A DNA stretch of 64,000 nt from Longimicrobium sp. (GTDB lineage: Bacteria > Gemmatimonadota > Gemmatimonadetes > Longimicrobiales > Longimicrobiaceae), in the NCBI GenBank assembly GCA_036377595.1, contig DASUYB010000130.1, positions 1-64,000 on the forward strand, given 5' to 3'. This document shows positions 23,309 through 42,406 of this stretch, piece after piece (position 1 is the first letter of the stretch; each line of letters starts with the position of its first letter). The translations under genes were made by a program, and so were the position numbers. The notes under the pieces are model-generated. The model did not search any database and had not been told where the DNA came from. It worked only from the letters and a program-made list of their open reading frames with translations.

Positions 23309-23362
23309 GAAGTCCGCGAAGGCGGACTGCGTGTCGTTGTAGCCGCGACTTGAGTCGCATAC
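23309..23362. repeat. Solo REP-like element
   Basis: AGTCCGCGAAGGCGGACT (18 nt, a hairpin) followed by GCGACTTGAGTCGC (a second hairpin). The first hairpin is identical to one in the REP arms flanking the RAYT transposase gene at 32541-33080, about 9 kb away. Confidence 0.65.
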
Positions 23363-24778: not shown

Positions 24779-24843
24779 ACCTTCTTCAGTGGGTCGGTTT
24801 TCAACGCGCCGTGAGAGACATCTGTCCGGTCGCCACGCGGAGG

Positions 24844-24909
24844 CCCTCTCCCCCCGGCCCCCTCCCCCAAAACCGACTGGGGGAGGGGGAGACCTCAGCG
24901 CGGGGAGAG
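24844..24909. repeat. Family C palindrome, copy 2
   Basis: CCCTCTCCCC...CCCCCTCCCCC on the left mirrors GGGGGAGGGGG...GGGGAGAGGG on the right, with loop AAAACCGACT. It lies between the PuuD-like gene and the aldehyde dehydrogenase gene, in the transcript. Confidence 0.8.
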
Positions 24910-24949
24910 GGTTCGGCGCGGAACGGACGTATCCCCCTCCCCCGGCTCT

Positions 24950-25816: not shown

Positions 25817-25945
25817 CCGGCCCCCTCCCCCAGCCCCTCCCCCGCTGCGCAGGGGAGGGGAGCACTCAGCGCGGAAGCTGGATTCGGCGCTTTGTTCTCC
25901 CCCGCCCCTGCGCAGCGGGGGAGGGGCTGGGGGAGGGGGCCGCCC
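25817..25945. repeat. Family C palindrome, copy 3 (about 130 bp)
   Basis: CCCCCTCCCCCAGCCCCTCC at the left is mirrored by GGAGGGGCTGGGGGAGGGGG at the right. Nested inside are a CGCTGCGCAGGGGAGGGG/CCCCGCCCCTGCGCAGCG pair and an AGCACTCAGCGCGGAAG core. It separates the SDR and PuuD-like genes. Confidence 0.85.
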
Positions 25946-25989
25946 GCGGCCGCGCAGAAGCCTGCTTCCCGCTCCCATCCCATCCACCG

Positions 25990-27941: not shown

Positions 27942-27969
27942 TCAAGGACCAGCGCTCGCGCGGCCGCCG

Positions 27970-28112
27970 GCTCCCCCCCACCCCCGGCCCCTCCCCCACG
28001 AGGGGGGAGGGATGGGGGAGGGGAGACCTCAGCACGGAGGCAGGCTACAGCGCTGAGTTCTCCCCCGCCCCTGCGAAGCGGGGGAGGGGGCCGGGGGGAG
28101 GGGGCCGCCCGC
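27970..28112. repeat. Family C palindrome, copy 4
   Basis: CCCCCCACCCCCGGCCCCTC on the left mirrors GAGGGGGCCGGGGGGAGGGG on the right. Nested CTCCCCCACGAGGGGGGAG and an AGACCTCAGCACGGAGGC core match copies 2 and 3. It lies between the GS-like gene and ddl. Confidence 0.8.
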
Positions 28113-28156
28113 GGCCGCGGAAACGTACGCTGCCGGCATCGGACTCCACCCCACCA

Positions 28157-32540: not shown

Positions 32541-33080
32541 CTAACCAAGCGCGGCGTCCGCTCTTGGCGGCAGGTTGAAACCTGCCGCTGGAACTTCAAG
32601 AAGTCCGCCTTCGCGGACTCCGGTGGCCATGTCCTGCCGGGATGCCGGCATGTTGGCGGCATCAGGATCGCCGGGGACCGTCGGCTCGAGAAAGTTTGCC
32701 ACCCGGCCCGTGCGGTGGTGCTGCTCCTGGTTCAGCACATAGCCACGGATTCGCGCCACGTGCTGGCGAGAGACGCTGAACGCGCCGTACCCGCCCTGCC
32801 ACCGGAATATCTGAACCGGGCGTGCAGCACTGTTCACGAGGAACGACGAGGCGCCTTTCAACTGCTTCACCAGATCGGCGGGAGCGATGGATGCCGGCGC
32901 GCGGACCAGCAGGTGCACATGGTCCTCCATGCCGCCGATGGCGATCACCGCGACCCGGAGCTTGCGGCACTCCGCCTGGAGTGACCGGTACACCGCGTCG
33001 CGAACCTCGCCGGCCAGGAGCGGAAGCCGGTCCCAGGTGGCCCAGACCAGATGCAGGTACAACTCGGCATGGCTGCTCAT
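32541..33080 (-). CDS. REP-associated tyrosine transposase (RAYT, IS200/IS605 TnpA-like)
   Basis: The 179-residue protein starts MSSHAELYLHLVWATWDRLP at ATG 33080. The HUH nuclease motif is His54-x-His56 (MEDHVHLLV) and the nucleophile is probably Tyr114 (IRGYVLNQEQHH), the standard Y1 layout. The coding region extends into the left REP arm, so the last roughly 25 residues (after QDMATGVREGGLLEV) are encoded by repeat sequence. No TnpB partner is present, and matching inverted arms flank the gene. Confidence 0.9.
   Translation of the reverse strand: MSSHAELYLHLVWATWDRLPLLAGEVRDAVYRSLQAECRKLRVAVIAIGGMEDHVHLLVRAPASIAPADLVKQLKGASSFLVNSAARPVQIFRWQGGYGAFSVSRQHVARIRGYVLNQEQHHRTGRVANFLEPTVPGDPDAANMPASRQDMATGVREGGLLEVPAAGFNLPPRADAALG
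32560..32625. repeat. Left REP arm of the RAYT gene
   Basis: Contains a hairpin GGCAGGTTGAAACCTGCC, then GCTGGAACTTCAAG, then a second hairpin AGTCCGCCTTCGCGGACT. The right arm (33130-33195) is its inverted counterpart, with compensatory changes in the first hairpin. Confidence 0.85.
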
Positions 33081-33129
33081 GGCGATCCCCCGGGGCGAGA
33101 GTGACGCCTGCGGCCGCGAATGGAAGCCG

Positions 33130-33195
33130 CGGCCACAGTCCGCGAAGGCGGACTTCTTGAAGTTCCAGCGGTGGGTTTCAACCCACCGACACCGG
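33130..33195. repeat. Right REP arm of the RAYT gene
   Basis: In inverted orientation it contains AGTCCGCGAAGGCGGACT, CTTGAAGTTCCAGC and the hairpin GGTGGGTTTCAACCCACC. About 33 central bases mirror the left arm exactly, while the outer hairpin has changed on both sides of its stem so it still pairs. Confidence 0.85.
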
Positions 33196-33338
33196 CGGGC
33201 AGCCACCCTGAATGGCGCTGGAAGCTCACAATCTTCACCCCGTCGCCGACAGATCCGCAACCACCCGCGCGTAACCCGCCACCGCCGCGCCGCATCACAC
33301 CCTTCGAGCCAGCACAGCCCACCCACCTGACGCCGAGA

Positions 33339-42259: not shown

Positions 42260-42332
<73 letters not shown>

Positions 42333-42333
42333 C

Positions 42334-42406
42334 TGCCCCTTGGTGTAATTGGCAACACGCCTGACTCTGGATCAGGAAAGTCCAGGTTCGAGCCCTGGAG
42401 GGGCAA
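42334..42406 (+). tRNA. tRNA-Gln (CTG)
   Basis: A 73-nt gene separated from tRNA-Lys by a single nucleotide. Acceptor TGCCCCT pairs with AGGGGCA. Anticodon stem CCTGA/TCAGG encloses CTCTGGA, anticodon CTG. T-loop GGTTCGAGCC. No CCA is encoded. The two tRNAs should be processed from one precursor. Confidence 0.93.

Follow-up and report, generated by a model that had tools for sequence, protein, structure and literature searches.

The window analysed here is a 64,000-nucleotide stretch of the Longimicrobium sp. genome (phylum Gemmatimonadota; contig DASUYB010000130.1, positions 1 to 64,000). It contains a Y1 HUH transposase gene, tnpA, which is surrounded by a 62-nt inverted repeat (32558-32619 versus 33137-33198; 87% complementary), and the inverted REP-like arms described in an initial annotation of this DNA are thus borne out. 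The gene and its arms consist of the following features.

32541..33080, reverse strand: tnpA, Y1 HUH transposase of the subclass 1.2 type, 179 aa, ATG at 33080 (profile, motif, and fold)
Reverse strand: tnpA core, about residues 1-135, with H54 at 32921-32919, H56 at 32915-32913, and Y114 at 32741-32739 (alignment)
32541..32675, reverse strand: tnpA C-terminal tail, residues about 136-179, overlapping the left arm and mostly predicted to be disordered (predicted structure)
32567..32588, reverse strand: left arm outer hairpin, GCGGCAGG-TTTCAA-CCTGCCGC, within the last tnpA codons (sequence and folding)
32589..32601, reverse strand: left arm linker, ending in TTCCA, family A (sequence and two-hairpin test)
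32602..32619, reverse strand: left arm inner hairpin, AGTCCGC-GAAG-GCGGACT, facing the gene (repeat search and folding)
33137..33154, forward strand: right arm inner hairpin (repeat search and folding)
33155..33168, forward strand: right arm linker, TCTTGAAGTTCCAG (sequence and two-hairpin test)
33169..33188, forward strand: right arm outer hairpin, CGGTGGG-TTTCAA-CCCACCG (sequence and folding)

Both arms are built alike, each containing two hairpins: a near-invariant inner hairpin lying towards the gene and an outer hairpin in which the two sides of the stem change together. The inner hairpin (AGTCCGCGAAGGCGGACT) is identical in the two arms and is also present at 23311-23328, giving three matches in the window at up to 3 mismatches versus 0.25 expected. 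The outer stems, GGCAGG/CCTGCC and GGTGGG/CCCACC, differ between the arms by two compensated pairs, in agreement with the paired changes noticed initially. Folding of the arms as single-stranded DNA yielded exactly two hairpins each (-17.2 and -19.7 kcal/mol; z = -5.6 and -6.7). The earlier term 'REP arms' therefore holds as regards REP-like inverted repeats, but the unit is a REP with two hairpins instead of one. As had been pointed out, the final codons of tnpA do lie within the left arm. In the predicted structure, residues 118-142 of TnpA are partly helical and residues 143-171 are disordered; because of this disorder, and because the tail is missing from the orthologue in a sister genome (G032), the C-terminal tail is probably a meaningless read-through through the left arm.

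TnpA matched the Pfam Y1_Tnp profile with 84 bits and passed the NCBIfam IS200/IS605 model NF033573 (68.5 bits; cut-off, 55), but failed the NCBIfam RAYT model NF047646 (21.5 bits; cut-off, 80). No variation among 59 relatives was found at H54, H56, W94, Y114, Q118, and H122, so that both the HUH motif (H54/H56) and the catalytic tyrosine (Y114), whose conservation had been proposed as a check, are retained. The motifs of subclass 1.2 are present, i.e. DHVH at 53-56, WQ at 94-95, and Y-VLN-Q-EQ-HH (Y---Q--HH), and by these signatures TnpA fits with TnpA-Y1 subclass 1.2. The RAYT motif Y---NP(L/V)(R/K)xG was sought after the catalytic tyrosine of TnpA and was absent. Membership of the RAYT family, to which the transposase had initially been assigned, is refuted by these motif and model tests. 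For the core, the fold is predicted with confidence, and the best matches are IS200-type TnpAs (Z 14-15), followed by the RAYT structure 4er8 (Z 12.6); the AlphaFold monomer aligns with 4er8 through the tyrosine helix (2-137) and with IS200 TnpAs only over residues 1-107, a comparison in which monomer models are biased. The genome carries two tnpA genes, which are 47-48% identical, and each is single-copy. In the second gene (contig C192; L032 1275-1889), the ORF extends past the transposase domain, and one aligned relative, probably this gene, matches the putative addiction-module component TIGR02574.

The possibility that the inner hairpin is absent elsewhere in the genome, raised at the outset, is contradicted by 249 exact copies in the 7.2-Mb genome (0 for the reversed-pattern control); a looser pattern detected 279 copies. 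The copy in the window had been recorded as a solo hairpin at 23309-23330, but a linker and an outer hairpin are also present, which makes it a full unit belonging to a different repeat family, family B.

23311..23358, forward strand: dispersed two-hairpin REP, family B, whole unit (sequence and folding)
23311-23328, forward strand: inner hairpin of this unit (sequence and folding)
23329-23344, forward strand: linker of this unit, with GTTGTAGCC (sequence)
23345-23358, forward strand: outer hairpin of this unit (sequence and folding)

In this unit, the inner hairpin is followed by GCGTGTCGTTGTAGCC and then by the outer hairpin GCGACTTGAGTCGC. The sampled copies share this order, i.e. an inner hairpin, then a linker and outer hairpin, and conservation ends about 2 nt beyond the inner and about 6 nt beyond the outer hairpin, defining a repeat of about 50-56 nt. 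The linker and outer hairpin tell the families apart: family A (TTCCAGC), family B (GTTGTAGCC), and family C/D (GTTGTTGCC). Family A, whose outer hairpin is described as a 7-bp stem with a 4-nt loop, has about 35 copies genome-wide; family B has 60 exact copies and about 100 at up to 1 mismatch. GTAG is located 2 nt before the outer hairpin in family B, whereas family A has TTCCAGC and no GTAG.

Other features of the window include dispersed GC-rich polypurine/polypyrimidine palindromes at 24843-24927, 25819-25956, and 27958-28134 (CCCCCTCCCCC...GGGGGAGGGGG with AGACCTCAGCGCGG between), dozens of similar copies of which were found in G032, and two adjacent tRNA genes at 42260-42406.

The placement of the units was analysed with a home-made gene finder in 0.84 Mb of this genome and 0.4 Mb of G032. 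In the two species, 60 of the 62 sampled units are intergenic, with about 81% of the DNA being coding; of the sampled units, only the left arm is located in a gene, namely tnpA, and few units lie in divergent intergenic gaps. An alignment of 31 distinct units comprised 403 pair cells, each of which was paired without any mismatch. This figure is inflated, mostly for the inner stem, because the selected units had to form no fewer than 6 of the 7 inner-stem pairs and because four units of odd geometry were excluded. Changes on both sides were found in 24 of the 403 cells, with no one-sided changes and no G-T (G-U) pairs, and one stem position runs through A-T, C-G, G-C, and T-A. The pairing pattern is nearly perfect across genomes too. 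That both sides of a pair have changed, with no G-T intermediates, suggests that constraint or copying acts on the hairpins as DNA rather than as RNA.

Each transposase gene is associated with its own repeat family. In this genome, the tnpA of the window has family A arms and the C192 tnpA has family B arms; the unit at 23311 is cognate to the latter, a different transposase gene. In G032, two tnpA genes carry arms of two further families, both of which are also dispersed in that genome. An intact matching tnpA is absent for family C/D in this genome and for one family in G032, and family C/D may be a relic of an older specificity. The tnpA of the window is found at the same locus in G032, beside a threonine-synthase-like gene (82% DNA identity). 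The divergence at four-fold sites between the two genomes is 0.52 for tnpA (46 sites) versus 0.40 and 0.38 for its neighbours, which is compatible with orthology, whereas first and second codon positions differ by 0.26 in tnpA and by 0.10-0.17 in the neighbours, indicating that the TnpA protein evolves faster than its neighbours. The arms at this shared locus contain GTTCCAGC and GGTGGG/GGCAGG stems here and GTTGTTGCC and GCGACT in G032, and the dispersed copies follow suit. Of two orthologous intergenic sites checked, one is without a unit in G032 and the other carries a unit of a different family; neither provided a clean empty site or excision, and their flanks are too diverged to map junctions. 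G032 also contains a third, stop-containing tnpA relic (C2:506728-507084) that has a different inverted repeat and no two-hairpin arms.

The presence of the repeats follows that of the transposase across genomes. Among 150 genomes of the phylum, TnpA (at least 118 bits; next score, 85) was found only in this genome and G032, which contain 279 and 260 copies, respectively; the other 148 genomes contain 0-2 copies, the level of the reversed control. Most of 38 genomes of other phyla, reached via protein relatives, carry tens to 236 copies, with controls near zero. In a cyanobacterial order (120 genomes), the median copy number is 27 with TnpA and 0 without it, and at least 5 copies are present in 27 of 35 genomes with TnpA versus 14 of 85 without it (Fisher p = 4e-10, which is only indicative since the genomes are non-independent through shared ancestry). 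Of the 85 cyanobacterial genomes in which no tnpA was detected, 12 still carry at least 10 copies, which may reflect relics, assembly gaps, or another enzyme.

Similar units flank the relatives of tnpA. A shuffled-partner null for inverted repeats proved too blunt, and an explicit two-hairpin test was used instead. By this test, two-hairpin units adjoin 65 of the 83 tested genes of this type; none was detected beside the 26 other Y1 genes from this phylum or in shuffles. At 35 of the 83 loci, inverted units with gene-facing inner hairpins lie on either side, and 18 of the 83 relatives have no recognisable unit within about 400 bp. The relatives with units belong to Gemmatimonadota, Chloroflexota, Cyanobacteria, and others, and the group also includes Armatimonadota and Myxococcota. 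The arms of different loci resemble each other, and unrelated inverted repeats were also found at 8 of the 26 other Y1 genes. In a basal group (L134, L137, L138, and L139; Planctomycetota, Rhodothermota, and others), Y---Q--HH is shared and this type of unit is absent; the inverted arms of L134, L137, and L138 carry other sequence (CCAGGGT...ACCCTGGGT). In a Chloroflexota locus (L082 1238-1858), six tandem two-hairpin units, mostly about 100-170 bp apart, are located upstream of a subclass-1.2-like tnpA.

These data make it highly probable that the locus is a REPtron-like pair, in which a vertically kept, single-copy, IS200-like (class 1) Y1 transposase of subclass 1.2 is coupled with its own inverted two-hairpin REPs and their dispersed family. 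The REPtron-like character proposed initially is thus upheld by the inverted arms and the many copies, and the accompanying suggestion that the locus still seeds REP elements is plausible given the species-specific copies. By analogy with characterized enzymes, we infer that TnpA mobilises the units. TnpA would bind both hairpins of a unit as folded single-stranded DNA, for instance on the template of the lagging strand. The bases GTTGTAG, GTTGTTG, or GTTCCAG, which lie 5' of the outer hairpin, would act as a guide that chooses the cut; Tyr114 would cut beside the unit, form a 5'-phosphotyrosine, and rejoin the unit elsewhere. Hairpin recognition in single-stranded DNA, guide bases, the 5'-phosphotyrosine, and rejoining are known from IS200/IS605 and TnpA-REP enzymes (PMC8266576). 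The near-invariant inner hairpin would serve as a common recognition element and the linker and outer hairpin would confer family specificity, so that TnpA and its family could change together over time and leave older families as orphans.

Several of the observed properties, namely inverted REP-like arms, many copies, compensated stems, a fast-evolving gene, and arms that change with the gene, have been reported for RAYTs (PMC2817692), and the GTAG before the outer hairpin in family B and the fold match to 4er8 would likewise suit a canonical RAYT REPtron, i.e. a class 2 TnpA-REP whose GTAG REPs have a single hairpin. Such an assignment is nevertheless very improbable in view of the model scores, the missing NP-type motif, the closer fold matches to IS200 TnpAs, the presence of two hairpins per unit, and the lack of GTAG in family A. 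The IS200 fold and the match to the NCBIfam IS200/IS605 equivalog would be expected of an ordinary IS200/IS605 insertion sequence whose ends were left behind as MITEs, but we consider this origin quite doubtful, as there is one copy per tnpA instead of many near-identical ones, the same locus is occupied in two species, and the long terminal inverted repeats found here are absent from IS200/IS605 elements (PMC2817692). If the hairpins were RNA elements (terminators or mRNA 3' stabilisers) with tnpA merely lying among them, their intergenic placement, their scarcity in divergent gaps, and their strength would be accounted for; this is scarcely credible, however, considering the lack of G-U or one-sided intermediates among the 403 paired cells, the failure of any Rfam family to reach its cut-off, the arms of the matching family that flank each tnpA on either side, and the presence or absence of units in line with tnpA. 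The units may have a secondary RNA role.

It is also conceivable, though unlikely, that the mobile unit is the inverted pair, a REPIN/MITE-like, internally deleted form of the tnpA unit, with single units representing decayed halves. The close pairs in this genome are indeed in the '-+' arrangement, with their inner hairpins inward as around tnpA and about 65-135 bp apart; however, they are a minority, as most units are single and the 30 sampled units included just 2 close pairs apart from the tnpA arms. Moreover, conservation stops within a few nucleotides of either hairpin, as given above, and the close pairs in G032 are often in the same direction and of mixed families. At four places in G032 (L209, L211, L220, and L222), a TTTCCAGC-type unit is followed in the same direction by a GTTGTTGCC-type unit at a distance of 101-273 bp, and this two-family pair is perhaps a composite element. 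As an extension of the REPtron-like reading, and by analogy with IS200 TnpAs, which are dimers acting on two hairpins (PMC2817692), one two-hairpin unit could carry both 'ends'. Each unit would then be a complete minimal single-strand transposon, a 50-nt REP moved in trans, in which the inner and outer hairpins represent the left and right ends needed by an IS200-type TnpA dimer, fused 13-16 nt apart. We put this forward tentatively, as a possibility that we think rather less likely to be right than wrong; if true, it would explain why REPs have two hairpins for class-1 and a single hairpin for class-2 RAYTs, and why the inner hairpin is fixed while the linker and outer hairpin track each enzyme.

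In the survey of Quentin et al. 2018 (PMC6006769), subclass 1.2 was recorded as having no REPs and no IS-type ends and as occurring mostly in Cyanobacteria and Bacteroidetes. The enzymes analysed here resemble that subclass in DH[IV]H, WQ, and Y---Q--HH, in their short core, in being present as one or a few diverged copies per genome, and in their occurrence in Cyanobacteria, but differ in having two-hairpin REPs beside most members tested and in their wider range of phyla (Gemmatimonadota, Chloroflexota, Armatimonadota, and Myxococcota). The REP search in that survey was restricted to repeats with a basal stem of 7 or more pairs together with GTAG or GTGG (PMC6006769), criteria that most of the two-hairpin units found here would fail. 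RAYT REPtrons (Nunvar 2010, PMC2817692; Corneloup 2021, PMC8266576) likewise combine a Y1 enzyme and inverted REPs with a dispersed intergenic family, compensated stems, a fast-evolving gene, and one REP family per enzyme. In contrast, the enzyme class found here is Q--HH and not NP, and each REP contains two hairpins and a GTTGTAG, GTTGTTG, or TTCCAG foot, whereas a RAYT REP consists of a GT[AG]G foot and one hairpin. IS200/IS605 elements (IS608 and ISDra2) share the enzyme fold and catalytic residues, and the two hairpins per strand recall their left-end and right-end hairpins; the present system, however, is not multicopy, is vertically kept, and has terminal inverted repeats. TIRYT/TIRtrons (Di Nocera 2013, PMC3733652) also combine a tyrosine transposase with terminal inverted repeats, some of them self-complementary and repeated in the genome, but are mainly of subclass 2.1 with GGGGWSAS repeats, none of which are found here. 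Some '-+' pairs are reminiscent of REPINs/BIMEs, although the units here mostly occur singly and two hairpins are already present in each. An overlap with the outer hairpin is possible for the cyanobacterial GTAG-12 repeats (PMC3733652). The hairpin sequences gave no match in literature text, in which figures and supplements are not searchable. The system thus resembles a REPtron in its workings but forms a separate variant, being neither a RAYT nor, as a single copy at a fixed locus, an ordinary IS.

These findings provide a REP system for a transposase subclass that has been classified as REP-less, across phyla with few described REPs, and the two-hairpin unit differs from the REP types found in the literature compared. 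The sister pair, in which the locus and gene are the same and the arms and copies are different, constitutes a natural test of how the specificities of enzyme and repeat change together, and also of whether such transposases spread REPs, a long-standing open point.
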